From Caldisericum sp. (GTDB lineage: Bacteria; Caldisericota; Caldisericia; Caldisericales; Caldisericaceae): a stretch of 32,104 nucleotides of DNA. Below are positions 676 through 22,700 of this stretch, in pieces. The position numbers and the translations under genes are program-made. The stretch is from assembly GCA_020692945.1 (NCBI GenBank), contig JAIMJY010000010.1, positions 1 to 32,104 of the forward strand, read 5' to 3'. Each line of letters starts with the position of its first letter. Position 1 is the first letter of the stretch. The notes beneath the pieces were generated by a model, which saw nothing but the letters and a program-made list of their open reading frames with translations, searched no databases and was not told the origin of the DNA.

Positions 676-2409
676 ATGAAAGGAAGGTCACTAACAGATG
701 CTTTGCATGACATTCAGAGTGGAAACAAAGAAAACTATATTCCGGAAAAAGATGCGTTAACTGTTTCCGAAAAGAGCAAGGTTTCACTATCAAAGGTTTA
801 CGGATTTGCAACTTTTTATTCAATGTTTTCAGTAAAGCCTCGAGGCAAGCGTATTATAAGGGTATGCAAAAGCCTTTCCTGTCATATGGGAAAGGCGGAA
901 GAGGTAATTGAAAAACTCAAAGAAGTACTTGGTATTGGAATTGGAGAAACAACAGAGGATGGTGAATTTACCCTTGAAGAAAGTAGCTGTCTTGGAATGT
1001 GTTCTGTTTCTCCTGCAATAATGATCGATGAAATTCCATTTGGCAACCTCACTGTGGATCAGATCCCAGAAATTATAAAGAAAGTGAAGAGTGAAGGAAG
1101 TCAAGAGAAGATTTATACAGAGCAGATCCTTCCGGCTCAAGGGAGAGTAGTATTGAAGAATGTTGGAGTGATTAATCCTGAAAGTATTGATGAATACATT
1201 GCTTCTCGAGGATATCTTGCTCTTAAAAAGGCAATTGAAAATGGACCTCAATGGGTTATTAACGAAGTGAAAAAATCAGAGCTCAGGGGAAGAGGGGGGG
1301 CAGGATTCCCGACAGGTAGAAAGTGGGAATTCACTGCTAAGGCTCCAGGGCCTCAAAAATATTTGATTTGCAATGCCGATGAAGGTGAGCCTGGCACATT
1401 CAAAGATAGGGTAATTATGGAAGGGGACCCTCACTCTATTATTGAGGGAATGATTATTGCAGCGTTTGCAACGGGTTGCAACAACGGTTACGTCTATATA
1501 AGAGGTGAATATGACCTATCCATTAGAAGAATTGAAAAGGCAATTGAGGATGCCAGAAGCCACGGTTTCCTTGGTAGAAATATTCTAGGAAGTGGTTTTT
1601 CGTTTAATATTGAGATTCATAAGGGAGCGGGTTCCTATGTCGTTGGAGAAGAAACAACTCTTATGGAATCAATTGAAGGGCATAGAGGAGAGCCAAGGAA
1701 AAAGCCACCATATCCTCCAACCTTTGGGTTATTGGGCAAGCCTACAGTTATCAATAATGTTGAAACACTTGCTAACGTACCGCCAATCATCGCGAACGGA
1801 GCAGATTGGTACAGGACAATTGGAGTCACGGAGTCTTATGGAACAAAACTTTTCAGCTTATCGGGTGATGTGAACTGGAAGGGTGTCATTGAGGCTCCTT
1901 TTGGGGCACGACTTTCGTATATTACAAACGAGTTTGGTGGTGGAGTAAAGAACGGTAAAAAACTCAAAGGGATAATTCTCGGAGGAGTATCTGGAACTCT
2001 TCTTACTCCTGACCAATTTGATACTTCTGTTGATTTTAACTCACTCGCAACTATAGGGGCTGGACCTGGTTCGGGCTCCATAGTTGTAATGGATGAGACA
2101 AGATGTATAGTCGATATTGCTAAAAATATTGCTTATTTCTTCAAGTATGAAAGTTGTGGAAAGTGTACACCTTGCAGAATTGGCACTGAGCAGGTGTACA
2201 AGATAGTTGACAGGATTTCTAAAGGAAGAGGAGAAGAGGAAGACCTCGATATCCTTGAACGTCTTGGCGAGAATATGCGCCTAACATCTTTCTGTCCTCT
2301 GGGGCAGACTGCTCCTAATATCATTGTGCAATCAATCAAGAAATTCAGGGACGAATGGATTGAACACATAAAAGACAAGAAAGTTGAAGGAGGTAGCAAT
2401 GAGCGATAA
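676..2409 (+). CDS. NuoE-NuoF fusion: NAD-binding diaphorase subunit of formate dehydrogenase
   Basis: 577-residue flavoprotein joining two subunits that are usually separate. Residues 1-~145 are a NuoE-type thioredoxin-like [2Fe-2S] domain with cysteines at 64, 69, 105 and 109. Residues ~155-577 are NuoF. This part has the NADH/FMN loop GRGGAGFPTGRKW (205-217), the FMN motif GAGSYVVGEET (317-327) and a [4Fe-4S] cluster at Cys494, 497, 500 and 540. No extra C-terminal ferredoxin domain is present. The start is set by AAGGAGGT at 663-670, 5 nt before the ATG. Its end overlaps the catalytic subunit by 11 bp. The role is electron transfer between NAD(H) and the iron-sulfur chain of the next protein. 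No membrane Nuo subunits are nearby, so this is a soluble dehydrogenase module rather than complex I. Whether it bifurcates electrons cannot be told from sequence. Confidence 0.93.
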   Translation: MKGRSLTDALHDIQSGNKENYIPEKDALTVSEKSKVSLSKVYGFATFYSMFSVKPRGKRIIRVCKSLSCHMGKAEEVIEKLKEVLGIGIGETTEDGEFTLEESSCLGMCSVSPAIMIDEIPFGNLTVDQIPEIIKKVKSEGSQEKIYTEQILPAQGRVVLKNVGVINPESIDEYIASRGYLALKKAIENGPQWVINEVKKSELRGRGGAGFPTGRKWEFTAKAPGPQKYLICNADEGEPGTFKDRVIMEGDPHSIIEGMIIAAFATGCNNGYVYIRGEYDLSIRRIEKAIEDARSHGFLGRNILGSGFSFNIEIHKGAGSYVVGEETTLMESIEGHRGEPRKKPPYPPTFGLLGKPTVINNVETLANVPPIIANGADWYRTIGVTESYGTKLFSLSGDVNWKGVIEAPFGARLSYITNEFGGGVKNGKKLKGIILGGVSGTLLTPDQFDTSVDFNSLATIGAGPGSGSIVVMDETRCIVDIAKNIAYFFKYESCGKCTPCRIGTEQVYKIVDRISKGRGEEEDLDILERLGENMRLTSFCPLGQTAPNIIVQSIKKFRDEWIEHIKDKKVEGGSNER

Positions 2410-5122
2410 ACTTATCCTTGTGAAAATTGACGGCAAAGATTATCAGTTTTCGCAAGGAATAACTATCTTAAATGCTTGCAAAATTGCAAATTATGACATA
2501 CCAACACTTTGTTATCTTGAGAACATCGCTGAAGAAGGGTCCTGTGGAATGTGCGTTGTTGAAGTTAAAGGAGCGAAAACTCTTCAGAGGGCTTGTATTA
2601 TTAAAGTTACCGAAGGCATGGAAATTACGACAGAGTCATCCGCCGTCCGTGAAGCAAGAAAACTAAACCTTGAACTTGCACTCGCTCACCATCCACTCGA
2701 TTGCATGACATGCGATGCTGACGGAGACTGTGAATTACAGGAGCTTGCGTATGAATTTGGAATCAAGAGGAGTCAGTTCCTTGATGAGAAAGAGGTCTTT
2801 GAATATCCAAAGGAAACTTCGTGGGATTCAAATCCTTTCATTCAGTTTGATCCGCAAAAGTGCATTCTCTGTAGAAGATGTGTTGATGCTTGTGAAAGTC
2901 AGGCGATTGTTGAAGCGATTGGGATTGGAATGCGAGGTTATAAATCAACGGTTTCCACTCCATTTAATTTACCTCTTGAACAGACTGATTGTCAGTTCTG
3001 TGCTGCTTGTGTACAGGCTTGCCCTGTTGGTGCTCTTGTTGAGAAGCCACGCGTAGGAAAGGGAAAGATCTTCAACCTTGAGAAAACGGACACAATTTGT
3101 GCATACTGCGGGACTGGTTGTGAGGTGACCCTTTATAGGGATAAGAAGAATGACCTTGTTTTGGCCAGAGGAATTGATGATTCGATCGTGAACGAGGGAA
3201 GACTCTGTGTCAAGGGGCGTTATGGTTATGAGTATGTAAATTCAAAAGATAGGCTTACCACGCCTTTGATTAAGGAAAATGGCAAGTTTAGGGAAGCCAC
3301 TTGGGAAGAAGCAATAGAGTACACTTCTAAAAGATTGCTTGAGATAAAAGAAAAATATGGGCCTGACGCAATTGGTGTACTTGGCTCTTCAAGATGCACA
3401 AATGAAGATAACTATGTTGTACAGAAATTTGCCCGTGCAGTTATTGGCACCAACAATGTTGATAACTGTGCACGATTGTGCCATGCCTCAACAATTGCAG
3501 GTCTTGGAAAGGCGCTTGGTGCGGCGGCTGCAACTAATCCAATTGAGGATATAAAGAATGCCGATGTAATGTTTGTTATTGGTTCAAATATGACGGAAAC
3601 CCACCCTGTCATATCTCAATTTATTAAGGAGAATCAGAGGAAAAGAGGAGCAAAACTTATTGTTTGTGACCCAAGGAAGACTGATCTTGCAAAAGTTTCT
3701 GATATTCATATTCAGCACTACCCGGGCACGGACGTTGCGCTTCTTAACGGTACAATGAAAGTCATTGTCGATAAAGGACTTGTTAATAAAGAATTCATTG
3801 AAGCTCATACCGAAGGATACGATGAATTTGTTAAGATTGTTTCAAAGTATGATATTGAAACTGTTTCAAAGATAACAGGTGTTGACAAAGCGCTTATTGA
3901 AAAAGCTGCAGAAATGTATGCGACAGCCCCTAATGCAACAATTTTCTACACAATGGGTATTACTCAGCATTCGGTTGGAACGGATAATGTGCTTAGTGTT
4001 GCAAACCTTGCGCTCGTAACAGGTCATATCGGAAGAGAAGGAAATGGCATAAATCCTTTGAGAGGTCAAGCAAATGTTCAGGGAGCCTGTGATATGGGAG
4101 CTCTCCCTGATGTATATACAGGCTATCAAAAAGTTATTGATCCTGCCTCAAGGGAGAAATTTGAGAAGGCATGGAGGGTAAAACTTCCAGATAAAGCTGG
4201 TATGCCTGTTACCGAGTTTGGTGACGCTGCACTCTCCGGTAAACTAAAGGCGATTTTTGCGATGGGCGAAAACCCGCTTATGACTGAGCCAGATATTAAG
4301 CATGTAAGAAAAGGATTTGAGAATCTTGAGTTTTTAGCTGTTCAGGAGATTTTCCTTTCGGAAACTGCAGAGCTTGCAGACGTTGTTTTCCCCTCGGCAG
4401 CTGCCTATGAGAAGGAAGGTACTTTTACGAACACCGAAAGAAGAGTTCAGCTTCTTAGACCAGCACGTGAAAAGCCAATTAACGCAAAATTTGACTGGGA
4501 AATTGTCTCTCTTGTTTCAACAAAGATTGGATATCCAATGAAATATAAAAATGCTGATGAAATTATGGATGAGCTTGCAAAACTGACTCCGTCGTATGCT
4601 GGTATTCATCACTTTAGGCTTGAACAAAGTGGTATACAGTGGCCTTGCCCAACGGATGACCACGAAGGAACAAAGATCCTTCACTACGGTGGTAACTTCA
4701 AGCGATCTAATGGAAAAGCATTCATTGCTCCAGTTGAATATATTAAGGCAAAAGAACTCCCAGATAAAGAATATCCTTTTATTCTGACAACAGGGAGAAT
4801 TCTTTACCACTACCACTCAGGCAATGAGTCAAGAAGAGTAAAGGTGCTTGATACATTTGTTCCAAGAAATTACATCGAAATAAGCAAAGAGGATGCAGAG
4901 TCTCTGAAGATTAACAATAAGGATTCGGTTAGGGTGTCTACTAGAAGGGGAAGTATTGATCTTGAGGCTCGTGTTTCTGACAAGCCAAAGAAGAGTGTCG
5001 TGTTTATTAGTTTCCACTTCCGTGAGGCAGCAGCAAATATTCTAACAAATGCAGCCCTTGACCCTGTTTCGAAAATACCTGAATATAAAGTTGCAGCATG
5101 TAAAATCGAAAAAATTAAATAA
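2399..5122 (+). CDS. fdhA: Formate dehydrogenase alpha subunit (NuoG-like N-terminus, Mo/W-bisPGD)
   Basis: 907-residue catalytic subunit for reversible formate oxidation. Domains in order: [2Fe-2S] ferredoxin (Cys38, 49, 52, 66); a NuoG-type His-Cys [4Fe-4S] (H98, C102, C105, C111); a 2x[4Fe-4S] ferredoxin (C155/158/161/165 and C198/201/204/208); a molybdopterin-domain [4Fe-4S] (C234/237/241/270); then the molybdopterin and dinucleotide-binding domains to the C-terminus. In NCARLCHAS, Cys361 aligns with the selenocysteine of E. coli FdhF and is encoded by TGC, so this is a Cys-type enzyme. I prefer ATG 2399 to the in-frame start at 2384 because AAGGAGGT (2387-2394) sits 4 nt upstream. The formate assignment is supported by the adjacent FNT channel and by mobA and fdhD. 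Related NAD-linked molybdoenzymes share the architecture. Mo versus W is undetermined. Confidence 0.92.
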   Translation: MSDKLILVKIDGKDYQFSQGITILNACKIANYDIPTLCYLENIAEEGSCGMCVVEVKGAKTLQRACIIKVTEGMEITTESSAVREARKLNLELALAHHPLDCMTCDADGDCELQELAYEFGIKRSQFLDEKEVFEYPKETSWDSNPFIQFDPQKCILCRRCVDACESQAIVEAIGIGMRGYKSTVSTPFNLPLEQTDCQFCAACVQACPVGALVEKPRVGKGKIFNLEKTDTICAYCGTGCEVTLYRDKKNDLVLARGIDDSIVNEGRLCVKGRYGYEYVNSKDRLTTPLIKENGKFREATWEEAIEYTSKRLLEIKEKYGPDAIGVLGSSRCTNEDNYVVQKFARAVIGTNNVDNCARLCHASTIAGLGKALGAAAATNPIEDIKNADVMFVIGSNMTETHPVISQFIKENQRKRGAKLIVCDPRKTDLAKVSDIHIQHYPGTDVALLNGTMKVIVDKGLVNKEFIEAHTEGYDEFVKIVSKYDIETVSKITGVDKALIEKAAEMYATAPNATIFYTMGITQHSVGTDNVLSVANLALVTGHIGREGNGINPLRGQANVQGACDMGALPDVYTGYQKVIDPASREKFEKAWRVKLPDKAGMPVTEFGDAALSGKLKAIFAMGENPLMTEPDIKHVRKGFENLEFLAVQEIFLSETAELADVVFPSAAAYEKEGTFTNTERRVQLLRPAREKPINAKFDWEIVSLVSTKIGYPMKYKNADEIMDELAKLTPSYAGIHHFRLEQSGIQWPCPTDDHEGTKILHYGGNFKRSNGKAFIAPVEYIKAKELPDKEYPFILTTGRILYHYHSGNESRRVKVLDTFVPRNYIEISKEDAESLKINNKDSVRVSTRRGSIDLEARVSDKPKKSVVFISFHFREAAANILTNAALDPVSKIPEYKVAACKIEKIK

Positions 5123-5133
5123 AGGAGGCAAAA

Positions 5134-5991
5134 ATGAATGAAATGAATTTATTCCCGCCCGCTCAAATTGCTGAGAAAGTGAGGGATGTGTGTGTTGGAA
5201 AATGTAAAGTCCCAATGAAGAAGTTCTTTATCCTTGCAATTCTTGCAGGTGCCTTTATTGCATTTGGTGCTCAACTCTCTATCCTTGTTGGGTCTGATGC
5301 AACAATGGGGTTTGGCTTCACCAAGTTCCTTTCGGCAAGTGTGTTTACTGTTGGACTAATGCTTGTTGTTGTGGCAGGTGCTGAACTTTTTACAGGAGAC
5401 AATCTTATAATAATGTCAGCGCTTGAAAAGAAAATTCGTTGGAGCGAACTTTTAAAAGCATGGATTGCAGTCTACATTGGTAATTTTATTGGCTCAATTC
5501 TTGTTGCGCTTCTTCTTTATTGGTCAGGGCTTTGGAGTTTAAATGGAAGTATTGTAGGTGCTGCTGCGCTAAAGATTGCTAGCACAAAGGTCAGTCTTAC
5601 ATTTGTTCAAGGGCTTTTCAGGGGTATTCTCTGTAACTGGCTTGTTTGCCTTGCTGTGTGGATGGCAACCTCCGCAAAAGATGTTATAGGTAAGCTTTTT
5701 GCAATCTACTTCCCTATTATGGCTTTTGTCGCTTCTGGTTTTGAACACTCTGTTGCAAATATGTTCTTTATTCCATACGGGATTTTCCTTAAGTCTGTTC
5801 CAAAGGTTGTTGAAGCTACAGGCAAGACTCTTGGCGATTTCGCAGGGCTTAGCTGGGGAACGCTCTTTACGAAAAATCTTATCTCGGTAACGATTGGAAA
5901 TATAATTGGTGGAGTGTTCTTTGTTGGCTTTATTTATTGGTACGTGTATCTCAAAAAGGAGCCAGTAACTTTTGAGCCAAAGAAAGATTAA
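5134..5991 (+). CDS. Formate/nitrite transporter (FNT/FocA family channel)
   Basis: 285-residue integral membrane protein with about six hydrophobic helices. It carries family signatures: AGAELFTGDNL after the second helix, NWLVCLAVW, and FEHSVANMFFIP containing the conserved pore histidine. FNT proteins form pentameric channels for formate and similar monovalent anions across the inner membrane. The gene sits 11 bp after the dehydrogenase gene with a strong site (AAAGGAGG at about 5121-5128). It therefore most likely imports formate for, or exports formate from, that enzyme. The direction depends on whether the cell oxidises formate or reduces CO2. The C-terminal coding end overlaps the mobA start. 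Confidence 0.93.
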   Translation: MNEMNLFPPAQIAEKVRDVCVGKCKVPMKKFFILAILAGAFIAFGAQLSILVGSDATMGFGFTKFLSASVFTVGLMLVVVAGAELFTGDNLIIMSALEKKIRWSELLKAWIAVYIGNFIGSILVALLLYWSGLWSLNGSIVGAAALKIASTKVSLTFVQGLFRGILCNWLVCLAVWMATSAKDVIGKLFAIYFPIMAFVASGFEHSVANMFFIPYGIFLKSVPKVVEATGKTLGDFAGLSWGTLFTKNLISVTIGNIIGGVFFVGFIYWYVYLKKEPVTFEPKKD

Positions 5992-6658
5992 TTCACTGAA
6001 AAGGAGCGTGAATTACAAAGGAGTAAATTCACTGAAAGAGAACGCGGATTGCAGAAAAGTAAAACCCGTAATTCTTGTTGGTGGAACGAGCAAACGCTTT
6101 GGGAGTGATAAGGCTTACCTTACCGTTCAAGGTGAATCAGTCATCCTAAGGACCCATAAGTTGCTTAAGAGTACGTTTAATGAGGAGCCTCTCTATATAG
6201 GAAGGGAGGCTCCCTTCAGTTCGTTTGAAGCGCTACCAGATGAAGTTGTCGGGGCAGGACCAATTGGCGGGCTCTACACTGCTTTAAGAAACATTACTGC
6301 TGATTTTGTTTTTCTGACTGCTTGCGATATGCCTTTTATAAATGGAAAGGTGCTGAAGTACATGATAGATCACCTGCAAGATAAAATTATGATTTACCTT
6401 CCTCGATTTAAGAACGGCATGATTGAGCCACTTTTTGCGTTTTACAACAAAGAGCTTCTCCGTTGTGTGTCAAAAAAAATAAATGAAGGTGAATTCAGAT
6501 TGCGTTCTCTGATTAGTTGCGGAGCTGTGCAGTATCTTGAAGAGCAAGAAATTAGATCTATAGATTTAGAGCTCTTGTGCTTTTTAAATATCAACACCAG
6601 AGATGATCTCGACAGGATAAATGAATGGTCCAATCTTGAAAGAAATAGAGATCTTTAG
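5972..6658 (+). CDS. mobA: Molybdenum cofactor guanylyltransferase MobA
   Basis: 228 residues. MobA transfers GMP from GTP to molybdopterin to make the (bis-)MGD cofactor used by formate dehydrogenases. The nucleotide-binding signature LVGGTSKRFGSDKAYL lies near residues 35-50, and the catalytic-site CDMPF motif follows in the middle. The start taken is TTG at 5972, with AAGGAG (5956-5961) 10 nt upstream. It overlaps the FNT gene by 20 bp. No ATG exists before the GG-loop, and a GTG at 6008 is the alternative. The first 30 residues are unusual for the family: residues 7-18 and 19-30 are tandem copies of a 12-residue unit (NSLKRSVNYKGV / NSLKENADCRKV), encoded by a 36-bp duplication. The body of the protein looks normal. 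Confidence 0.88.
   Translation: MSQRKINSLKRSVNYKGVNSLKENADCRKVKPVILVGGTSKRFGSDKAYLTVQGESVILRTHKLLKSTFNEEPLYIGREAPFSSFEALPDEVVGAGPIGGLYTALRNITADFVFLTACDMPFINGKVLKYMIDHLQDKIMIYLPRFKNGMIEPLFAFYNKELLRCVSKKINEGEFRLRSLISCGAVQYLEEQEIRSIDLELLCFLNINTRDDLDRINEWSNLERNRDL
5991..6062 (+). repeat. Diverged 36-bp tandem duplication at the FNT/mobA junction
   Basis: Copy 1 is 5991-6026 and copy 2 is 6027-6062, with no spacer. By eye 27 of 36 positions match and all nine differences are transitions (A/G or T/C). The first copy begins on the last base of the FNT stop codon. The unit is a multiple of three, so the mobA frame stays open and gains 12 codons. Confidence 0.8.
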
Positions 6659-7319
6659 ATTTAATAACGGAAACGTTTTTTCGTTAAAGGACTTAGTTGT
6701 TGTTGAGAGGGTGCTGAATATTTTTATTGAGGACAGTTTGGTTGAGTCAATCACTTATTCTTCTGGTTTCGAAAAAGAGCTTCTTTTTGGTTACCTTTAC
6801 CTTGAAAAGCTTATAGAATCTAAAAAAGATGTCTTTGATTTTAAGATTGTTGAAGGAAGCCATTCAACAAATTGTTATGCAAAAATTTCAAAAAGCAAAA
6901 CTAATGAAATCCATTCACAGTCGAAAATAAAAGCCTCTCAATTGTTTTATCTTATGAAAGAGTTGCTTTCAAAAAGCTTTACTTTTGCGCGTACAGGAGG
7001 TACTCATATTTCTGGTATTTCTGGTGGAGAGAAACTAATAGCGTATTTTGAAGATATATCTCGTAGAAGCACTATCCAAAAATTGGTTGGTTTTGCTCTC
7101 TTAAACAGTATTTTGGACGTTAAAATCCTTCTCACAAGTGGGCGTATTAGTCTCGGTACAGTCCAATTTGCCAAAAGGGCAAATATACAATTTGTCGTTT
7201 CCCAGTCGGCTGTAACGGATTTGGCAGAGCAGTCGGCAAATGATAATGGAATAACCCTTATAGGTTTTCTTCGCGGCAACAGATTTAACATCTATTCTCA
7301 TCCAGAGTTTCTTTACTAA
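6621..7319 (+). CDS. fdhD: FdhD-family formate dehydrogenase accessory protein (divergent)
   Basis: 232 residues. FdhD-family proteins pass sulfur from a cysteine desulfurase to the molybdenum cofactor and are needed for active formate dehydrogenase. The fold is recognisable from VVVERVLNIFIED (the usual E-P-L-x-I-x-v-N-G region), RTGGTHISGI (~124-133), TSGRISLGTVQFAKRA (~172-187), SQSAVTDLA and GFLRGNRFNIYS at the C-terminus. Two hallmarks are missing. The CxxC pair that carries sulfur in E. coli FdhD is absent, since Cys85 is the only cysteine in the protein. The usual EDxGRHNAxDKxxG motif reads EDISRRSTIQKLVG. The start overlaps mobA by 38 bp, so a later start is possible. Position directly behind the formate genes supports the identity. 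Catalytic competence is doubtful, and a binding role is an alternative. Confidence 0.85.
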   Translation: MNGPILKEIEIFRFNNGNVFSLKDLVVVERVLNIFIEDSLVESITYSSGFEKELLFGYLYLEKLIESKKDVFDFKIVEGSHSTNCYAKISKSKTNEIHSQSKIKASQLFYLMKELLSKSFTFARTGGTHISGISGGEKLIAYFEDISRRSTIQKLVGFALLNSILDVKILLTSGRISLGTVQFAKRANIQFVVSQSAVTDLAEQSANDNGITLIGFLRGNRFNIYSHPEFLY

Positions 7320-7498: not shown

Positions 7499-7566
7499 TC
7501 CTCGTGACAGGAAAGAGAGGTTTTTGGTTATTCAATTTATCCCTTTTATCTTCCCCGAGAAATTGA

Positions 7567-7572
7567 TATAAT
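7567..7572 (+). promoter_or_regulatory. TATAAT box placing the rsmH transcript start at its ATG
   Basis: A perfect TATAAT lies 6 nt before the rsmH ATG (7579), so initiation 7 nt past the box would give a leaderless mRNA. No Shine-Dalgarno site is visible between 7555 and 7578, which agrees with this. The -35 region (about 7544-7549, TTTTAT) is poor, and that is the main weakness. Confidence 0.4.
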
Positions 7573-7578
7573 GTCAAT

Positions 7579-8454
7579 ATGGAAATCTTTCATAAGCCTG
7601 TTTTTTTGAGAGAAAGTGTAGAATATCTTAATATTGATGCTGGTAAAATTGTTGTTGACTGCACAGTAGGAGAAGGAGGTCATAGTGAAGAAATCTTGCG
7701 AAAGATTGGACCAGGTGGATTTTTAATCGGTATAGACCTTGATGCCAAAGCTCTTGATAAATCATCTGTTCGTTTGAAGGAAATTGGTTCTAACTTCATC
7801 CTTATTGAAGGAAACTTCAGGGATATTTTAGTAATAGTTAAGCCGATTATTTCTAAAGTGGATGCTGTCCTTGCCGATTTAGGCCTCTCTTCCCTTCAGC
7901 TTATGGATGGAGAACGTGGGTTTAGCTTTATGAAAGAAGGACCTCTTGACATGAGGATGTGTCCTCTGTGTACCCGTTTCTCTGCTTATGACGTGGTCAA
8001 CAGCTTTAAAGAAAGTGAGATTTCTGAAATTCTTTTTTACTACGGAGAGGAACCTCTGTCAAGGAAAATTGCGAAGAGGATTATTGAAATACGCACCAAA
8101 ACGCCTATCAGAACTACGATTCAGCTTGCTGAAATTGTGCAGAGCATTTTTCCAAGAAGATACTATAAAACAAACCCAGCAACTCGAACATTTCAAGCTT
8201 TGAGGATTTTTGTAAATGATGAGCTTGAGAACCTCAAACGTTTTCTTGCTCAAGTACCAGAGATCTTGAATTTTGGTGGTAGGGTAGCCATAATTTCTTA
8301 TCACTCTCTCGAGGACAGACTTGTTAAAAATGCTTTTAAAAATGACGAAGAGTTAAACAGAGTGAACAAAAAGGTAATTGTACCTTCATATGAAGAGGTC
8401 CAATCTAATAGGCGAGCCCGAAGTGCAAAATTAAGGGTGGCAGAGCGAATATGA
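7579..8454 (+). CDS. rsmH: 16S rRNA (cytosine1402-N4)-methyltransferase RsmH
   Basis: 291 residues, near the usual 300-315. RsmH uses S-adenosylmethionine to methylate N4 of C1402 in 16S rRNA. Motifs seen: SAM-binding DCTVGEGGHS (27-36), GPLDMRM (~121-127), NPATRTFQALRIFVNDEL (199-216), SYHSLEDRLVKNAF, and a C-terminal NRRARSAKLRVAER. It is the first gene of the cluster. The mraZ regulator that often precedes it is not in this window. The start has a TATAAT 6 nt upstream and no Shine-Dalgarno site, suggesting leaderless translation. Its stop overlaps the ATG of a 17-codon ORF as ATGA. Confidence 0.96.
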   Translation: MEIFHKPVFLRESVEYLNIDAGKIVVDCTVGEGGHSEEILRKIGPGGFLIGIDLDAKALDKSSVRLKEIGSNFILIEGNFRDILVIVKPIISKVDAVLADLGLSSLQLMDGERGFSFMKEGPLDMRMCPLCTRFSAYDVVNSFKESEISEILFYYGEEPLSRKIAKRIIEIRTKTPIRTTIQLAEIVQSIFPRRYYKTNPATRTFQALRIFVNDELENLKRFLAQVPEILNFGGRVAIISYHSLEDRLVKNAFKNDEELNRVNKKVIVPSYEEVQSNRRARSAKLRVAERI

Positions 8455-8504
8455 TTGGTATTTTTCTTTTTGTTGTAACGGCGTTTTACAGTTTATTAAG
8501 ATGA
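8451..8504 (+). CDS. 17-residue hydrophobic micro-ORF coupling rsmH to ftsL
   Basis: ATG at 8451-8453 overlaps the rsmH TGA (8452-8454). The frame encodes MIGIFLFVVTAFYSLLR and ends with TGA at 8502-8504, which overlaps the ftsL ATG at 8501-8503. Both junctions are ATGA, the classic arrangement for translational coupling. The peptide is almost wholly hydrophobic with a terminal arginine, like a minimal membrane segment. Without it there would be an untranslated 46-bp gap, in a cluster where most genes overlap. I know of no named family. It may be a real micropeptide, a coupling device, or chance. Confidence 0.45.
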   Translation: MIGIFLFVVTAFYSLLR

Positions 8505-8764
8505 AAAAGAGAGTTTTTGTAATCGTTTCAATCATTATTCTTTTGGTGATGTATGGTTTTGTTTACTTGTTTACTGTTAGGCTCCAAACGAAACTTAATA
8601 CTCTCGTGAAAAAAAAGGATGCGCTTAACCTCGAAAATGAGGCATTGAGAACGCAGAGTTTTTATTACTCTTCGCCAGACAGAATTGATAAGATAGGAAG
8701 GGAAAAATACAAAATGACAGAGCCAAAATATTTCTATATAGTTGAGATGAATAATGGAAACTAA
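8501..8764 (+). CDS. ftsL: FtsL/DivIC-like cell division protein
   Basis: 87 residues with a short basic start, one membrane helix (about 5-24) and a coiled-coil stretch with spaced leucines (about 28-52), then a compact C-terminal part. This is the bitopic layout of FtsL/DivIC proteins, which bridge FtsQ and FtsW-FtsI in the divisome. These families are too short and variable for a firm match. The assignment rests on layout and on position between rsmH and ftsI, where ftsL is usual. It overlaps ftsI by 11 bp. The start is coupled to the micro-ORF by ATGA, and no strong Shine-Dalgarno site is present. Confidence 0.8.
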   Translation: MKKRVFVIVSIIILLVMYGFVYLFTVRLQTKLNTLVKKKDALNLENEALRTQSFYYSSPDRIDKIGREKYKMTEPKYFYIVEMNNGN

Positions 8765-10439
8765 AGAAGACTCATTTCTTGTAAGATTAGCAATCGTTTT
8801 CTATGTTGTAATTTTTGTTTTCTTAATGATATTTCTGAGGCTTGTATTCATTCAGGTGATAAATAGAAACAACTACTTGATGGGGCTTTCTCCTCAGATA
8901 GATACTGAGTACAACACGATAAAGGCTGAACGTGGAGATATCTTTGATGTAAATGGTGAGCCTCTTGCCGTTAGCAGTACTTTCTTTCAGCTTGATGTAA
9001 ATCCATATCTTTTGAGCGCAAGCGAAAAAGAAAAGCTTATAAAATTCCTTCCTCAAATTTTAAATACACCTAAAACAACTATCCAGCAGCTAATGCTACA
9101 AAAGGATTATGTAATGGTAAATTCTTCCTTGAATGCCACCCAAAAGCAGAAAATTGAAGAACTAAACATAACAAATGGCATTTCGCTCTCCAGAACCGTT
9201 AAAAGGACTTACCCCCTTGGAAACAAAATTTCTACTGTAATTGGAGCAGTTGGTTTAAACGGTACTGGACTTGCAGGTTTGGAGTACTCGCTTGATTCGT
9301 ACCTTTCTGGAAAAAACGGGAGAGTATTTAAGGATTTTACTTCTACAAAACCTCTAATGCCAGGTGAGGTATCTTTTTCAGTAGACCCCGTAAAAGGCAA
9401 TACTGTAAAACTTACGATTGATGCAAACATACAAAGCACTATCCAGCGCTTGCTTGAAGAAAAAATTAAGGAAGTCCAAGCAAAAAAAGGTCTTGTTATC
9501 GTTATGAACACGAAGACTGGAGAGATTTTAGGACTCGCTAACTTTCCTTCGTATGATCCAATTGCTCTTACGGGCTTTAGCTCGGCAATTGATATGGCAG
9601 TTAATTGGAATTATGAGCCTGGTTCTGTTATCAAACCAATTGTTGCTGCTGCTGCTCTCGAAGCTGGTACACTTCGTACTGATGAAGATTTTTATTGTAG
9701 TGGGAGCGTCAAAGTAAAAGATAGAGTCATCTCTTGTTGGCAGAAGCATGGAGCTGAACATGGGCTCAATACAATCATGATGAATTCTTGCGATGTTGCT
9801 TTTGTGCAGACCGGTTTGAAGCTTGGAAAAGAGAATTTGTTCAATTCTTTTAAAAGGTTTGGGTTTGGAGAAGCTACGGGGATAGAACTCCCTGGAGAGG
9901 AGAAAGGGATTCTGCCAGATTTTAAAAATATTGGTGATGTAGAAATTGCTAACATGTCTTTTGGACAGGGTATTGCTGTTACGCCACTCCAGCTTATATC
10001 TGCTTTCCAAGCAATAGCCAACAAGGGGGTACAGGTTAAACCAACGATCATTAAAGAAATAACTGATGCTTCTGGAAATGTAATTTTCCAGTCCAAGACA
10101 ATTATAAAACAGGCAGTAATTTCAGAAGATACTGCCTTAAAAGTAATGGATTCCCTCAAGGCAGTTGTAGAGGGCGGAGGTGTCCCTCAGGCAAAGATTC
10201 CAGGTTATGAAGTGGCAGGCAAAACCGGTACTGCTCAAAAAGTGTTGCCTTCTGGGGGTTACTCGAACCAAAAACTTATTTATAGCTTTTGCGGAATTTT
10301 GACAGTAAACGATCCTCAAATTGCCGTTTTGATAGTAATAGACGAAACTCCCACTCCTACCTACTCTTTAAACATCACTGCGCCACTTTTTAAAGAAATT
10401 GGAGAATTCCTTGTGAGGTATCTCAGGATATCAAAATGA
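8754..10439 (+). CDS. ftsI: Septal peptidoglycan transpeptidase FtsI (class B PBP)
   Basis: 561 residues. One N-terminal membrane anchor (~11-35) is followed by the PBP dimerisation domain (AERGDIFDVNGEPLA at ~58-72) and a penicillin-binding transpeptidase domain that crosslinks peptide stems outside the membrane. Active-site motifs: S291-V-I-K294 (SxxK), K490-T-G (KTG) and S345-C-D347 in the SxN position. Asp instead of Asn in the second motif is more typical of PBP2/MrdA-type enzymes. The position beside ftsL and murE still indicates the septal enzyme. There are no C-terminal PASTA domains, unlike many Firmicutes homologues. It overlaps ftsL by 11 bp and murE by 4 bp. Confidence 0.93.
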   Translation: METKEDSFLVRLAIVFYVVIFVFLMIFLRLVFIQVINRNNYLMGLSPQIDTEYNTIKAERGDIFDVNGEPLAVSSTFFQLDVNPYLLSASEKEKLIKFLPQILNTPKTTIQQLMLQKDYVMVNSSLNATQKQKIEELNITNGISLSRTVKRTYPLGNKISTVIGAVGLNGTGLAGLEYSLDSYLSGKNGRVFKDFTSTKPLMPGEVSFSVDPVKGNTVKLTIDANIQSTIQRLLEEKIKEVQAKKGLVIVMNTKTGEILGLANFPSYDPIALTGFSSAIDMAVNWNYEPGSVIKPIVAAAALEAGTLRTDEDFYCSGSVKVKDRVISCWQKHGAEHGLNTIMMNSCDVAFVQTGLKLGKENLFNSFKRFGFGEATGIELPGEEKGILPDFKNIGDVEIANMSFGQGIAVTPLQLISAFQAIANKGVQVKPTIIKEITDASGNVIFQSKTIIKQAVISEDTALKVMDSLKAVVEGGGVPQAKIPGYEVAGKTGTAQKVLPSGGYSNQKLIYSFCGILTVNDPQIAVLIVIDETPTPTYSLNITAPLFKEIGEFLVRYLRISK

Positions 10440-11878
10440 ATGGTAATGATATCAAATTGCATTTCCCTGAACTTTTAGTTTCGCAGAACCTAAAAGTCGA
10501 AATAAAAGGCATTTCCATTGACTCAAGAATTGTTAAAGATGGAGAGCTGTTCGTTGCAACTAAAGGTGAGTATTTTGATTCTCACTCTGTAATTGATGAA
10601 GCAATTAAAAATGGAGCTGTTGGAATTGTTCTCGAAGGGGATAGGCCAATTGGAAAGCAGTTACTAAAAATACAGACAAACAACTCAAGACAAGCCTATG
10701 CACTTATTTCTTCCCTTTTCTTTGAATTTCCATCAGAGAAAATTAAGCTTGTTGGCATAACTGGAACAAGCGGTAAAACAACAACTGCATTTTTACTGTG
10801 CACTCTATTTAATAGAGTTGGTATACCTGCAGGATTCATTGGTACTCTAGGCGTCGGTATAAAAGGCCGTTTCAGGAGAATGGAACTTTTCCCGCCAACG
10901 ACTCCTGATGCTTTTCCCCTAAATGCTTTACTATCGGAAATGGTTAGAGAGGATGTTCAGTTCGTTTTTTTGGAGGTGTCTTCACACGCAATTAGCCTTG
11001 ATAGAGTTTTTGGGCTCCATTTTGCATTTAGAGTTCTCACAACAATGGGTGTAGACCATTTAGATTTTCATGAAACAGAGGAGAACTACCTCAACACAAA
11101 AGTTTCCTTTTTTGCTAACCAAAAAAATGTTATTCTAAATGCTGACAGTAACCGCATCGAATTATTTAAATCTGTCGTGGCAGAGGCTAAGCTGTATGGA
11201 ATTGAACACGGCGCAAGTTACTCTGCTTCAAATATTGAACTTACACCAAAAGGTTCTCATTTTGACTTATTGGTTGACAATGAGAAAAAAGTGCACATTA
11301 ACCTTTCGATAAGAGGCCTCTTTAACATCTATAATTTTCTTGCAGTTTCTGTTATCGCCATCGAGAATGGAATTTCTCTTGCCCAGTTGAAAGATTTTGC
11401 TTCAAAAGAAATTAAAATTCCAGGAAGAATGGAAGTAGTAGAGCTTAATGGCAAAACTATTGTGGTTGATTTTGCTCATAATCCTATTGAGATAAAAGAA
11501 GTGCTAAGTTTTCTTCGGGCAAACAAAAAAAGTAGACTCATCACCGTTATTGGTCCAGTAGGTGGTTCTACAAAGGAAAAGAGGTTGGAAATTGGTCTCA
11601 TTTCTTCACAATTAAGCGATTTTGTGTTCGTTACTGTTGACGACCCGCGTAAAGATGATCCTGAGGAGCTTGCAAGAGATGCATTTATTGGTATTTCAGG
11701 GAATGGGAAAATGGTTGTTGATAGAAAGGATGCAATAAGAGAGGCTGTAAAGATGGCACATAGAGAAGATATTGTCGCTATTCTTGGACGAGGAGACGAA
11801 GAAGAAATGCATTTTAAGGAGGGAACGAAAAAATTTTCTGACCTTAAAATTGTCTTGCAGGCGCTGAATGAAGATTAA
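10436..11878 (+). CDS. murE: UDP-MurNAc-tripeptide synthetase MurE
   Basis: 480 residues. This ATP-dependent ligase adds the third, diamino acid to UDP-MurNAc-L-Ala-D-Glu in the cytoplasm. Motifs: N-terminal uridine-binding region (SIDSRIVKDGELFVA, ~27-41), ATP loop GTSGKTT (110-116), LEVSSHAISLDR in the central domain, and DDPR at 402-405 in the C-terminal specificity loop. Enzymes that use meso-diaminopimelate usually read DNPR here. The Asp resembles what I recall for Thermotoga maritima MurE, which uses lysine, so the third residue may not be meso-DAP. The late GKGHE motif is also altered, to GRGDE. It overlaps ftsI by 4 bp and murF by 11 bp. Confidence 0.94.
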   Translation: MNGNDIKLHFPELLVSQNLKVEIKGISIDSRIVKDGELFVATKGEYFDSHSVIDEAIKNGAVGIVLEGDRPIGKQLLKIQTNNSRQAYALISSLFFEFPSEKIKLVGITGTSGKTTTAFLLCTLFNRVGIPAGFIGTLGVGIKGRFRRMELFPPTTPDAFPLNALLSEMVREDVQFVFLEVSSHAISLDRVFGLHFAFRVLTTMGVDHLDFHETEENYLNTKVSFFANQKNVILNADSNRIELFKSVVAEAKLYGIEHGASYSASNIELTPKGSHFDLLVDNEKKVHINLSIRGLFNIYNFLAVSVIAIENGISLAQLKDFASKEIKIPGRMEVVELNGKTIVVDFAHNPIEIKEVLSFLRANKKSRLITVIGPVGGSTKEKRLEIGLISSQLSDFVFVTVDDPRKDDPEELARDAFIGISGNGKMVVDRKDAIREAVKMAHREDIVAILGRGDEEEMHFKEGTKKFSDLKIVLQALNED

Positions 11879-13244
11879 CCTGAGCGAACTTTTTTCTTTA
11901 TATAGCGGTTCTGTGCTTGGCAATCTTCCTCTCCAATACGGAAGATTCGTAACTGACAGTAGAACTGTCGAGAAAGGAGATATTTTCGTAACAATCAGAG
12001 GGAACCACGTTGATGCTCATGACTATGTAGATAGTGCTATTGATAGAGGTGCAATAGGCGTTATCGTTGATCACTTTATAGAACTTCCTTCAGGTTTCCA
12101 ATATGTTGTAGGGTCAACAACAGATTTTCTTGTTTTTCTTGGAGCCTTTGCTAGAAAAAGGGCCAGTGGACAATTCGTTGGCATCACTGGGAGTGCAGGT
12201 AAAACAACTGCCAAGGAAATGCTTGCCGAAATTCTCTCCGTGAAGTATCGTGTAACCAAAACGGTTGGAAATATGAACACGGATGTTTCTTTGCCAATCT
12301 TTATGGCAAATTCCGTTAACGGTGATGAAGATTTTGTCGTCGTTGAAATGGGAGTTCAACGGCCGAATGATATGAACCGCCTTTTAACTATAGTTGAACC
12401 TGATATTGGTGTTGTTCTGAATATCGGCGAGTCCCACCTGGAATACCTTTTTAGTAAAAACGGCGTTGCGCGAGAAAAATTTAAACTAGTAGAGTATCTT
12501 GCGAAACATAACGGTACAGCATTTTTAAATGCTGATGATGAAACAATACTTTCTTTAAGCGAGCAGTTTTCATTGAAGAAAATTTTCTTTGGAAATAGTG
12601 ATAGCGCTGATGTAAGTGGCAAAATAATAAATATGGGGAACGACGCTATGGAAGTTCTTCTGCATTTTTCTAACCAGGAGTATAGTGCAAAGCTTCCCTT
12701 TTCTGGAACACACTTTTTAAGTGATGCACTTGCTGCAATATCAGTTGGCTTAGACGCAAAAATCACTATTGCTGAAGCATTGCTTGTTCTTTCTACTTTT
12801 TCACCTCTTAAGGGTAGAGGCAATACGATAAAGCTCTCTAACGAAATTGTTCTTATTGACGAAACATATAATTCTAATCCTCTTTCTCTCATGAAATCAC
12901 TTGAACGGCTGAAGGGAAATGGAAATCATTTGGTACTAATTCTTGGAGATATGCTTGAGTTAGGAGATGAAGCCGTTTGCATTCATAGAGATGTTGGTAA
13001 GTATATTGCACACATTAACCCTTCGGCACTTATTACCTTTGGCTTGCTTGCCGAAGAAATTGCGTTTTCTGCGAAAGAATCTGGTTTGAATAATGTTTTC
13101 TCGTTTACGGAAAGAGACAGCTTCCTCCGTTTCCTTTTAACCCTTGAATTTTCTGAAAAATCTATTATATTCGTCAAGGGTTCACGTGGAATGAAAATGG
13201 AAGAATTTGTTGAAATTATTAGCGAGAGGTTGAAAGATGAATAA
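11868..13244 (+). CDS. murF: UDP-MurNAc-tripeptide--D-Ala-D-Ala ligase MurF
   Basis: 458 residues, normal for the family. MurF joins D-Ala-D-Ala to the UDP-MurNAc-tripeptide in the last cytoplasmic ligation. Seen: N-terminal Mur domain (VTDSRTVEKGDIFVTIRG, ~28-45), ATP loop GSAGKTT (108-114), VVVEMGVQRPNDMNRLL in the central domain, DETYNSNPLSLMKSLE and LGDMLELG in the C-terminal domain; these last two are characteristic of MurF. It starts inside the end of murE (11-bp overlap) and ends inside mraY (8-bp overlap), consistent with one translationally coupled transcript. Confidence 0.96.
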   Translation: MKINLSELFSLYSGSVLGNLPLQYGRFVTDSRTVEKGDIFVTIRGNHVDAHDYVDSAIDRGAIGVIVDHFIELPSGFQYVVGSTTDFLVFLGAFARKRASGQFVGITGSAGKTTAKEMLAEILSVKYRVTKTVGNMNTDVSLPIFMANSVNGDEDFVVVEMGVQRPNDMNRLLTIVEPDIGVVLNIGESHLEYLFSKNGVAREKFKLVEYLAKHNGTAFLNADDETILSLSEQFSLKKIFFGNSDSADVSGKIINMGNDAMEVLLHFSNQEYSAKLPFSGTHFLSDALAAISVGLDAKITIAEALLVLSTFSPLKGRGNTIKLSNEIVLIDETYNSNPLSLMKSLERLKGNGNHLVLILGDMLELGDEAVCIHRDVGKYIAHINPSALITFGLLAEEIAFSAKESGLNNVFSFTERDSFLRFLLTLEFSEKSIIFVKGSRGMKMEEFVEIISERLKDE

Positions 13245-14166
13245 ATCGATAATCTTTGTTTTTATTTGCGTTTTTTTTGTTTCATTAGCTTCTCTTGCAG
13301 CGTATATACCATTCCTTAAGCGTAGAAATTATGTGCAATTCGTGCGAGATGAGGGAGTCAAAGCACATAAGGCTAAAGAGGGCACACCGCGAGGGGGAGG
13401 AGTCGTTTTCCTTTTAGCTCCACTGTTTTTGCTTCCTTTTTACCACGGAAGAGAGTTTCTCTTTTTATATTTCTCTTTACTTTCCTTTGGACTCATAGGT
13501 TTTATCGATGATCTAATGAGCATTAGGCACAAGGAATCGCTTGGGCTTAATGTAAAAACAAAACTCACCCTCTTTACAATAGGCTCTGTTTTGATTTTCT
13601 TGATAGGCAAGGGGTTACTTTCTACTGAAGTTTCAATCATGAAATTGAAAATAGATCTTGGTACTCCGCTTTATTTCGTACTTTTTATCTGCATCATGCT
13701 CGGCTCCGCAAATGCTTTTAACCTGACAGATGGGGTAGACGGTCTTCTCGGAAGCGTGACGATTCCAATTTTTATTGCTTGCATTGCATTAACCGGAGGA
13801 GTGATAAGGGATTTTTCATTTATAATGGTTGCTTCTATTCTTGCTTTCCTTTGGTTCAATAGTCCTAGAGCATCAGTCTTTATGGGTGATGCCGGAGCGA
13901 GTGCAATTGGCGGGGTTGTAGGTGCAATGAGCATACTTGGAAAGTTTGAGCTTCTACTTCCAATTATTGCCATTATCCCTGTGATGGAAGCGCTTTCCGT
14001 GTTTATTCAGGTGGGATACTTTAAAATTACTCACGGAAAACGTGTGTTTAAAATGGCACCTATTCATCATCATTTCGAGCTCCTTGGTTGGAGCGAGTCA
14101 AAAATTGATTTTAGATTTTTTATTATTACGGTATTGTTTTGCGCAGTAGCGATTTTGCTTCGTTAA
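13237..14166 (+). CDS. mraY: Phospho-MurNAc-pentapeptide transferase MraY
   Basis: 309 residues, polytopic with about ten membrane helices. MraY transfers phospho-MurNAc-pentapeptide to undecaprenyl phosphate, forming lipid I at the inner membrane face. Motifs: HKAKEGTPRGGG (~44-55), FIDDLMSI, NAFNLTDGVDGL (Asp-rich catalytic loop), MGDAGASAIGG, and PIHHHFELLGWSE near the C-terminus. The usual GTPTMGG reads GTPRGGG, and MGDTGSLALGG reads MGDAGASAIGG, both moderate departures. The His-rich loop before the final helices is the MraY hallmark and excludes WecA/TagO. Confidence 0.95.
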   Translation: MNKSIIFVFICVFFVSLASLAAYIPFLKRRNYVQFVRDEGVKAHKAKEGTPRGGGVVFLLAPLFLLPFYHGREFLFLYFSLLSFGLIGFIDDLMSIRHKESLGLNVKTKLTLFTIGSVLIFLIGKGLLSTEVSIMKLKIDLGTPLYFVLFICIMLGSANAFNLTDGVDGLLGSVTIPIFIACIALTGGVIRDFSFIMVASILAFLWFNSPRASVFMGDAGASAIGGVVGAMSILGKFELLLPIIAIIPVMEALSVFIQVGYFKITHGKRVFKMAPIHHHFELLGWSESKIDFRFFIITVLFCAVAILLR

Positions 14167-14179
14167 AGGAGATTCTTAG

Positions 14180-15520
14180 ATGAAAAAAGTTCTTGTCGTT
14201 GGTTGCAGAAAGAGCGGTGTTTATTCAGCGCTTCTTGCAAAAAAGGTTGGGTACGATGTTTTTCTTACAGAGGACAAAGATAATGAGGAGGTTCGAATAT
14301 TTTTGCCACTTCTTGAGGCTCAAGGGATTGATTACGAAATTGGTAAACACTCTTTTAATCATTTTAAGGATTATGACCTCGCAGTTCTATCGCCTGGGGT
14401 TCCGCTTTCTGCAGAAGTCGTAAAAGTAATCAAGGAGAACTCCATTCCAATAGTCGGTGAAACTGAATTTGCATTTGTTAATGCCTCTTCAACAACTATT
14501 ATTGCAATTACTGGCTCCAACGGGAAAAGCACAACTACTGCTCTTACGGGGCACATCTTTGACGTTTCTGGGCAGTTTACGGTTACGGGAGGAAATCTTG
14601 GGACTCCTTTTTCAGAGCTTCTTTACGAAAACCCGCATCCACAGATTGCAGTACTTGAAACAAGCTGTTTCCAACTTGAAACCGTGGTTACTTACAAACC
14701 AAAAGTTGCAGTCTTTCTTAATCTAATGGAAAATCATCTTGACCGATACAGCAGTATGGAAGAGTATCTTACAGTTAAAAAAAAGATTTTTATGAATCAG
14801 GAAATTGATAATTTTGCAGTACTTAACCACGATGATTCTATTGTTAATGGCTTTGAGCCATCCATTAAAAGTAAACCTTATTTTTTTAGCATTAATGAGA
14901 AAGTTGATAGAGGTGCTTACCTCAAGGAAGGTAAGGTCACTTTTATAGACGGTGTAGAAGAGAGTTTATTTGATATTAGCATTATTCCACTGCGAGGGAA
15001 GCATAATGTAACTAACGTGCTTGCATCAGTAGTGTCTGCCAAAGTTATGGGGGTTGATATGCGAGCGATAATTGAAGGAGTTAGGACTTTTAAAGGCCTT
15101 CCTCATAGGCTTGAAGAAGTGCGCGTTATTGACGGTGTTTTGTATGTAAACGATTCAAAATCTACGACTCCTGATTCTACAATAAAAGCTTTGGAATCAT
15201 TTATTGAACCTATCGTACTGATTGCAGGAGGTAGCAGTAAGAATAATGATTTTTTGAAGATGGCTGAAAAGTTTCGTGGGAAGGTTAAAAAGCTAATTCT
15301 AATAGGACAGACTGCAAGAGAGATAGGAGATGCTTCAGTTAGAGTTGGGTACGGCGATTTCATAATAGCTGATTCTCTTGCGGAAGCAGTACTCACTGCT
15401 AAAGATAATGCACAAGCAGGTGACGTGGTTTTGCTCTCCCCTGCTTGTGCTAGTTTTGACATGTTCAAAGACTTTGAGAACAGAGGAAACGCGTTTAAAA
15501 ATTTTGTGAACTCTTTATGA
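14180..15520 (+). CDS. murD: UDP-MurNAc-L-Ala--D-Glu ligase MurD
   Basis: 446 residues, normal length. MurD adds D-glutamate to UDP-MurNAc-L-alanine. Seen: N-terminal Rossmann-like domain (VLVVGCRKSGVYSALLA), ATP loop GSNGKST (112-118), LETSCFQLE and NHLDRY in the central domain, and VNDSKSTTPDSTIKALE, the signature of MurD. LLSPACASFDMFKDFENRG closes the active site. AAAGGAG (14165-14171) lies 8 nt before the ATG and overlaps the mraY stop. It overlaps ftsW by ATGA (4 bp). Confidence 0.96.
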   Translation: MKKVLVVGCRKSGVYSALLAKKVGYDVFLTEDKDNEEVRIFLPLLEAQGIDYEIGKHSFNHFKDYDLAVLSPGVPLSAEVVKVIKENSIPIVGETEFAFVNASSTTIIAITGSNGKSTTTALTGHIFDVSGQFTVTGGNLGTPFSELLYENPHPQIAVLETSCFQLETVVTYKPKVAVFLNLMENHLDRYSSMEEYLTVKKKIFMNQEIDNFAVLNHDDSIVNGFEPSIKSKPYFFSINEKVDRGAYLKEGKVTFIDGVEESLFDISIIPLRGKHNVTNVLASVVSAKVMGVDMRAIIEGVRTFKGLPHRLEEVRVIDGVLYVNDSKSTTPDSTIKALESFIEPIVLIAGGSSKNNDFLKMAEKFRGKVKKLILIGQTAREIGDASVRVGYGDFIIADSLAEAVLTAKDNAQAGDVVLLSPACASFDMFKDFENRGNAFKNFVNSL

Positions 15521-16596
15521 ACAAAGAAAAAAAGACTTTAATCGTTTTCTTGGTCGTTGTAGTTTATCTCCTTGCCTTAGTGGGAGTTCTGATGAGTTTT
15601 AGTATTAGCTTTGCGGAAAGCGAAAAGCTCTCTATCAATTTGTTCATTAAACAGCTTGCCTATGTTGGCATTGGAACAGTTGTGCTGGTTTTCTTTTCCT
15701 TTTTTAACCATCACAAGTTGAGAGGACTTGCCAAGACGATTTTTCTACTTTTATTTATTATACTCAATGTTCTACTTTTTAAGGGTTTTGAGGATTTGCA
15801 CAGATGGATTCCTCTTGGGCTTATGGCTATACAGCCTTCACAATATACCTATCTCATTTTATCCCTTTTAATTGCAAGAATTTTTTCTGGTCCGCTCGAT
15901 GACAAAAAACTGTCCAAGCTCTACCTAGCATCTTATTTAATAATAGCAATTGTTTCTGGATTAATTGTTTTTGAGCCAGACATGGGAAGTGGAATTATTA
16001 CATTTCTATCTTCTTTTGCGCTTCTTTTTGTGAGCGGGATGCCATTGTATGAATTTTTGACTTTTTCGTTGTTAGGAGCATCAGGTATAGCATTAGTACT
16101 TCCTCTTAGTGCTGAGTGGTCAAGCAGACTAAAAGCATGGCGAAATCCTTATGCTTACCAAACTGGAGATGCCTTGCAGATGCTTCAGTCTATAAGGGCC
16201 TTTGCAAGAGGTGGCATAACTGGGGTTGGATTTATGAGAAGCTTGTTAAAATTCCCTGGTTATCTTCCCGTAAGTTCTTCCGATTTCGTTTATGCTATCA
16301 TAGGCGAGGAAATAGGTTTGTTTGGATGCACTCTTTTGATTGTGCTTTATGTAATCATTGCTTTCATTGGATTAAGAGTCGCAAAAATGGCAAAATCAAC
16401 ATTTTCTATGCTCTTAGCTTTTGGCCTTACAATTGGACTTATCAGTTGGGCTGTTGTTAATATGGCCGTTAATGTAGGGCTCATGCCTGTCACCGGTGTT
16501 CCCCTTCCATTTGTAAGTTTCGGTGGGAACAATATGATTGCTAACTTTGCAAGTACCGGTATTTTGATAAACATTATTAGAAAAGAGGTTGGTTAG
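15517..16596 (+). CDS. ftsW: Septal peptidoglycan glycosyltransferase FtsW (SEDS family)
   Basis: 359 residues with about ten membrane helices. FtsW is the SEDS glycosyltransferase that polymerises lipid II at the septum together with FtsI. SEDS motifs seen: RWIPLGLMAIQPSQ, FEPDMGSGI (the catalytic Asp region), GFMRSLLKFPGYLPVSSSDFVYAIIGEEIG split across the central loop, and the C-terminal MPVTGVPLPFVSFGG. RodA has the same motifs. Location between murD and murG, the standard ftsW site, decides the name. It begins with ATGA on the murD stop. Confidence 0.93.
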   Translation: MNKEKKTLIVFLVVVVYLLALVGVLMSFSISFAESEKLSINLFIKQLAYVGIGTVVLVFFSFFNHHKLRGLAKTIFLLLFIILNVLLFKGFEDLHRWIPLGLMAIQPSQYTYLILSLLIARIFSGPLDDKKLSKLYLASYLIIAIVSGLIVFEPDMGSGIITFLSSFALLFVSGMPLYEFLTFSLLGASGIALVLPLSAEWSSRLKAWRNPYAYQTGDALQMLQSIRAFARGGITGVGFMRSLLKFPGYLPVSSSDFVYAIIGEEIGLFGCTLLIVLYVIIAFIGLRVAKMAKSTFSMLLAFGLTIGLISWAVVNMAVNVGLMPVTGVPLPFVSFGGNNMIANFASTGILINIIRKEVG

Positions 16597-16597
16597 A

Positions 16598-19016: not shown

Positions 19017-19948
19017 CTAAAGAAATTGATTCTTTGAAAAAATCTTTAAGAGGCGAGGTGCTTCAGAATGAATCGATGTCAAAGCATACTTCTTTCCGTA
19101 TTGGCGGGCCTGCGGAAATTTTTGTAAAGCCAATTGATGTTAGAGACTTGAAGACAGCCATTAAATGGGCTAAAAGAAACAAGCTGCAGATATTTGTCAT
19201 CGGTAATGGTACAAATTTAATTGTCTCCGATGAAGGAGTTGAAGGTATTGTAATAAAAATTGGAGAAGCGTTTTCTGATGTTGAGTTCGATAATAAAGAG
19301 GCTTTTGTTCAAGCGGGAACTACAATCCAGAGTCTGCTTGAACAGGCGATGAAGCTTGGACTTGGTGGAATGGAATTTGCATGGGGGATCCCTGGTGCAG
19401 TAGGTGGGTCAATTGCAATGAATGCTGGCAGTAATTCACATTTTATAAGCACAAAGATAAATCGCGTTAACGTTATGGATTTTAATGGTAAAATCTATAA
19501 GCTGAATCATGATGATCTCAGGTTTGATTATAGATATTCTATTCTGCAGGATGAGCAGCTTATATTAACTGATGCCTTGTTTACTTTTGACAGGAAGGAC
19601 ATCACGTTTATGGAACATGAAAAAGAAATCTCTATAAAATCACGCTGGGAAAATCAGCCAATAAATTATCCCTGCGCCGGTAGCGTTTTTAAAAACCCTC
19701 CTACGACCTATGCCGGTAAAGTCCTTGAGGAGGTAGGATGTAAGGGAATGCAAACGGGGGGCGCAAAAATATCTGAAAAACACGCAAATTTTATTGTCAA
19801 CCTTGGCAATGCGACCGCGAATGACGTAATTAACCTTATAAGAGAGGCCCAGTACAGGGTGTACAAACAGAAGGACCTAATTCTTGAACTTGAAGTAAAG
19901 CTTGTCGGACAATTTGAAAATGTTTCTTTTCTTGAGAGAAAGAAATGA
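19013..19948 (+). CDS. murB: UDP-N-acetylenolpyruvoylglucosamine reductase MurB
   Basis: 311 residues. This FAD enzyme reduces enolpyruvyl-UDP-GlcNAc to UDP-MurNAc using NADPH. Seen: SKHTSFRIGGPAEIF (~23-37), GNGTNLIVSDEG (~64-75), GIPGAVGGSIAMNAG (125-139), YRYSIL, and AGSVFKNPP with the proton-donor serine at about residue 224. The length and the AGKVLEEVGCKG / EKHANFIVN region fit the shorter (type II) MurB lacking the extra loop of the E. coli enzyme. MurA is not in this window. It begins with ATGA on the murC stop. Confidence 0.95.
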   Translation: MTKEIDSLKKSLRGEVLQNESMSKHTSFRIGGPAEIFVKPIDVRDLKTAIKWAKRNKLQIFVIGNGTNLIVSDEGVEGIVIKIGEAFSDVEFDNKEAFVQAGTTIQSLLEQAMKLGLGGMEFAWGIPGAVGGSIAMNAGSNSHFISTKINRVNVMDFNGKIYKLNHDDLRFDYRYSILQDEQLILTDALFTFDRKDITFMEHEKEISIKSRWENQPINYPCAGSVFKNPPTTYAGKVLEEVGCKGMQTGGAKISEKHANFIVNLGNATANDVINLIREAQYRVYKQKDLILELEVKLVGQFENVSFLERKK

Positions 19949-21476: not shown

Positions 21477-21477
21477 T

Positions 21478-22686: not shown

Positions 22687-22700
22687 GAGGTTGATTTTAA

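Follow-up and report, generated by a model that had tools for sequence, protein, structure and literature searches.

A 17-codon frame with ATGA at both ends as a probable translational relay between rsmH and ftsL in a Caldisericaceae genome

Between rsmH and ftsL in the dcw cluster analysed here lies a very small open reading frame (micro-ORF) of 17 codons that shares an ATGA with the gene on either side. Is such a frame a peptide gene, a device that passes ribosomes from one division gene to the next, or an accident of base composition and phase? We addressed this question using the window, the whole 32,104-nucleotide stretch of DNA analysed, together with the genome that it comes from and the same junction in relatives. 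This stretch forms contig C93 in the genome of an uncultured bacterium, a fragmented assembly of 1.5 Mb (207 contigs; completeness 99%) that is apparently metagenome-derived.

Structure of the rsmH–ftsL junction

The features from rsmH to ftsI lie on the forward strand. The first flanking gene, rsmH (mraW; 7579–8454), encodes the 16S rRNA m4C1402 methyltransferase (PF01795, 1.5e-99), the product sharing 58–60% identity with RsmH of the named relatives Caldisericum exile and another Caldisericaceae bacterium. Its end reads CGA ATA TGA, giving a product C-terminus of RVAERI before the TGA, and the stop codon falls within a first ATGA (8451–8454), whose ATG (8451–8453) opens the micro-ORF (8451–8504). 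The micro-ORF reads ATG ATT GGT ... AGA TGA, translates as MIGIFLFVVTAFYSLLR and stops at 8502–8504, where its TGA is shared with the ftsL ATG in a second ATGA (8501–8504). Both of its ends are therefore the −4 nt overlaps that characterise an ATGA gene pair, and the earlier note's description of a 17-codon frame with ATGA at the rsmH stop and ATGA at the ftsL start proved exact, base for base. The two motifs are separated by a T-rich spacer of 46 nt (8455–8500; 54% T, 28% GC) that is present in the window genome only.

The small gene that follows (8501–8764, 87 aa) matched Pfam families below their cut-offs (DivIC, 2.3e-5; FtsL, 0.0015). It is probably an ftsL/divIC-like division gene, an assignment that rests on these sub-threshold matches, its place before ftsI and family homologs found at the same place; its N-terminus is colinear with that of relatives. 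The next dcw gene, encoding an ftsI/PBP2-type transpeptidase (8754–10439; PF00905, 2.7e-74), overlaps it by 11 nt. On the other side, directly upstream of the dcw cluster, are genes for a formate dehydrogenase-type molybdoenzyme, a formate/nitrite transporter, a MobA-like protein and FdhD (2384–7319). A TATAAT-like hexamer is located ~10 bases ahead of the rsmH ATG (7564–7581) and rsmH itself has no Shine-Dalgarno site (+0.4 kcal/mol); it heads the dcw cluster here and may be read from a leaderless mRNA.

The same junction in relatives and the origin of the spacer

The window genome is the sole sampled genome of its genus. The comparison set comprised 17 other genomes of the family, 16 of which carry rsmH (7 other genera). 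In all 16, rsmH and ftsL overlap directly, 14 of them by a single ATGA, and the FtsL of these relatives starts right at the junction. A representative of another family in the same class (L019) also has the ATGA, bringing the total for family and class to 15/17. The Caldisericum-group genomes L006 and L007 have lost the ATGA; with TAG as their rsmH stop, the ftsL reading frame begins ahead of it, its start seeming to be a CTG or TTG located 8 nt upstream of the rsmH end.

The micro-ORF was found neither in these 16 family relatives nor in L019. Frame and peptide thus lack the conservation expected of a conserved bacterial micropeptide gene (0/16), and the notion of a conserved element, which the earlier note would have judged by the junctions and frame in related genomes, is refuted. 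A lineage-specific relay is not refuted by this absence. Across a wider survey of 102 rsmH loci, of which 55 scored as direct overlaps, no second clear gap-filling relay was seen; one locus (L038) has a double-coupled frame at rsmH, but the downstream gene there already overlaps rsmH.

Both sides of the junction are otherwise preserved. The window RsmH C-terminus (RSAKLRVAERI) and FtsL N-terminus (MKKRVF...) match those of relatives, so that one ancestral ATGA has two counterparts in the window, 46 nt apart, and FtsL is colinear with its relatives from the first residues, which makes the spacer extra sequence. This comparison points to the insertion of ~46 nt and an additional ATGA into a coupling junction that is otherwise conserved, as a novelty of a single genome. 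The first ATGA corresponds to the ancestral rsmH–ftsL junction; the second was presumably created by the insertion, possibly accompanied by a 4-nt target duplication.

Several candidate origins for the additional sequence were rejected. An N-terminal extension of FtsL, split off by a frameshift, does not fit relatives, in which FtsL begins at the junction and lines up with the window protein from 8501 onward. Tandem duplication of the ftsL 5′ end gave a best alignment score of 23 versus a shuffle mean of 21.6 (P = 0.35), and the alignment seed lay at offset 74, unfit for a 50-nt unit. For a repeat or mobile element, no second copy of the spacer was present in the genome and the 17 family genomes yielded only AT-rich chance matches of ≤30 nt. 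RNA structure, such as a leader-peptide attenuator, was likewise discarded (fold z-score 0.03, no terminator-like site). Promoter-like sites near the junction occurred at chance frequency only, and the exact DNA of the locus was absent from viral contigs. An assembly artefact, in which the real chromosome lacks the 46 nt and the rsmH stop itself overlaps the ftsL start, would agree with a spacer that is missing in all relatives and comes from a single metagenome-assembled genome in 207 contigs. We regard it as most improbable, given that the spacer is unmatched elsewhere in the genome, leaving no source for a misjoin, that both genes are intact and that completeness is 99%.

Chance expectation and ribosome entry

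The earlier note held that a frame which is open, hydrophobic and joined at both ends by the same signal is unlikely to be trivial. We fixed both ATGA ends and the length, and randomized or replaced the 46-nt spacer. The frame stayed open in 28% of dinucleotide shuffles, 35% of mononucleotide shuffles and 50% of 46-mers drawn from the window. The hydropathy of the micro-ORF peptide (KD 1.95) was reached by 13% of the open dinucleotide shuffles, its hydrophobicity arising because the spacer is 54% T. Openness and hydrophobicity alone are not significant, being accounted for by the T-rich spacer, and the hydrophobic peptide adds no independent signal. Since the first ATGA is ancestral and the second belongs to a Met-Lys start, phase and openness alone were subject to chance; double coupling required no more than an open frame in the right phase (1 in 3). 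As an argument against triviality, the joining at both ends is therefore weak. The non-trivial features are an ftsL without a Shine-Dalgarno site and the interruption of a direct overlap seen throughout the family.

Using simple ORF calls over 608 kb of the same genome, an ATGA/ATGA relay was identified in 2/332 co-directional pairs, rsmH–ftsL included. The second is a 19-codon micro-ORF (L267, G000:C121, 3081–3140; MKHKAIKKSLERIGYKIKR) with a hydrophilic product. Its neighbours are a 497-aa ORF, by appearance an ATP-binding/winged-helix protein, and a gene for a 289-aa protein of unknown function, a pair that looks accessory. The occurrence of an unrelated frame in such a pair indicates that these frames also arise by chance.

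Ribosome entry sites differed sharply between the two ATGA motifs. The 16S 3′ end is canonical (GGATCACCTCCTTTC). Ahead of the ATGA on the rsmH stop, the 3′ end of rsmH contains a Shine-Dalgarno-like context (AAGGGTGGC...GAG, 8433–8450) that forms a duplex with ACCUCCUUU of −6.8 kcal/mol at the micro-ORF start. A corresponding site serves ftsL in relatives, whose ATGA ftsL starts score −5.7 to −8.2 kcal/mol against the anti-Shine-Dalgarno, with the site inside the rsmH tail. The window ftsL start, at +0.8 kcal/mol, has no site. The micro-ORF start has thus retained the ancestral Shine-Dalgarno context and the ftsL start at 8501 has lost any. This loss is unusual: among 49 starts located behind gaps of 20–120 nt in the same genome, the median was −7.9 kcal/mol and 90% were better than −1 kcal/mol, leaving ftsL and four others (5/49) on the weaker side.

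With genes beyond ftsI named by ORF reading, the dcw cluster runs ftsL ftsI murE murF mraY murD ftsW murG murC murB ddl ftsQ-like ftsA ftsZ in the window, and 11/13 junctions after ftsL up to ftsZ fall within −11 to +1 nt. The two gapped later junctions both have strong sites (murD, +13 nt, −8.8 kcal/mol; ftsZ, +14 nt, −10.9 kcal/mol). At +46 nt, rsmH–ftsL is the one wide gap in the cluster, and no other gapped start there lacks a site. Across 8451–22701, nearly all junctions of the cluster are overlaps (−4, −8 or −11 nt); ftsW and the ftsQ-like gene, which have no Shine-Dalgarno site, are exactly of the −4 type.

These observations bear on how ribosomes would reach ftsL. In six native gene pairs of E. 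coli and H. volcanii, gaps of 20–38 nt nearly abolish reinitiation, and the last 15 nt of the upstream gene are enough for coupling (PMC10666635). By that measure, a ribosome ending rsmH should rarely arrive at 8501 unaided but could do so by translating the micro-ORF. In the model that we propose, an insertion of ~46 nt with a duplicated ATGA separated rsmH from ftsL, which had overlapped directly in the ancestor, and the inserted frame would preserve the coupling. A ribosome finishing rsmH at 8452–8454 would reinitiate on the overlapping ATG, aided by the Shine-Dalgarno context retained inside the rsmH 3′ end, translate 17 codons, terminate at 8502–8504 and reinitiate on the ftsL ATG (8501), with the peptide as a by-product. 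We consider it on balance probable that this lineage-specific insertion is tolerated owing to a frame that passes reinitiating ribosomes on from rsmH to ftsL, and we infer from the sequence both translation of the micro-ORF and the dependence of ftsL on it. The relay from rsmH to an ftsL without a Shine-Dalgarno site, which the earlier note had suggested, thus gains inferential support from three sides, namely the missing site at ftsL, the ancestral one kept at the micro-ORF start and the failure of reinitiation to bridge 46 nt in published tests. Counting against it, the frame comes from a single genome, a metagenome-assembled one, its openness is expected by chance in 28–50% of cases given its ends, and the genome has a second, unrelated ATGA/ATGA micro-ORF.

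One rival is a chance frame within a neutral insertion, where ftsL initiates alone, either from an AU-rich leader that lacks a Shine-Dalgarno site or by short-range scanning, with the micro-ORF a bystander. Openness at 28–50% by chance, a hydropathy found in 13% of open shuffles, a 1 in 3 phase and the second relay-like frame all speak for it. The −4 overlaps at ftsW and ftsQ likewise lack a Shine-Dalgarno site. Initiation on the leader could serve ftsL with no relay, and four other gapped starts in the sample are also without a site. This explanation is possible, but we hold it to be doubtful, as starts without a site are rare among gapped genes here (5/49) and the ancestral ribosome entry site lies at the micro-ORF start, where some initiation (8451) is expected. 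The earlier note had also raised a tiny membrane peptide of the divisome. A functional, lineage-specific hydrophobic micropeptide, acting for example on FtsL and held at a fixed ratio to RsmH and FtsL by the double coupling, would suit the location within the dcw cluster, and 17 residues at KD 1.95 are enough length for a minimal membrane helix. The frame is nevertheless absent from all 16 relatives with rsmH, no homologous DNA turned up in the family and the hydropathy is that expected from base composition, 54% T; the peptide proposal is not supported and appears very unlikely.

Implications and comparison with known systems

If the relay is real, the locus represents a clean natural experiment, as an insertion broke a family-wide coupling junction and a non-conserved 17-codon frame now seems to do the handing over. 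The locus would illustrate how small insertions can be tolerated in operons and imply that some very small frames merit annotation as translation relays rather than as genes for peptides. Its effect is local, and the underlying principle has been described before, with short ORFs that deliver ribosomes to downstream genes covered in a review (PMC12548453); we found no literature treating ftsL, mraW and translational coupling together.

At each end, the micro-ORF resembles termination-reinitiation coupling at ATGA, the −4 nt overlap being the commonest coupled junction type in the window genome (52/332 co-directional pairs). Here, however, the two junctions flank a 17-codon frame rather than join two full genes directly. 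In the uof-pqsR system of Pseudomonas aeruginosa, translation of a short ORF also feeds the next gene, and uof is stimulated by the small RNA PhrS (PMC8395346). At the present locus, ribosomes would instead come from rsmH, and neither a regulator nor RNA structure (the fold z-score of 0.03 given above) was found. Bicistronic design (BCD) cassettes similarly employ a short leader cistron, of 17 residues in the cited example, that overlaps the target start and delivers ribosomes (PMC5995908), but they are engineered and carry a second Shine-Dalgarno site inside the leader, which the natural frame lacks.

A further likeness is to the mycobacterial interspersed repetitive unit (MIRU), an apparently mobile element that inserts at start codons, whose internal ORF couples at −4 nt and so spares the invaded operon (PMC12548453). 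The present locus shares with it a short insertion at a coupled start codon, unsplit in relatives, and an internal frame with −4 nt overlaps at both ends. In contrast to a dispersed repeat, the spacer is a single copy of 46 nt, AT-rich, from an unrelated phylum and without a repeat family. The locus would act in the manner of a MIRU insertion without being one.
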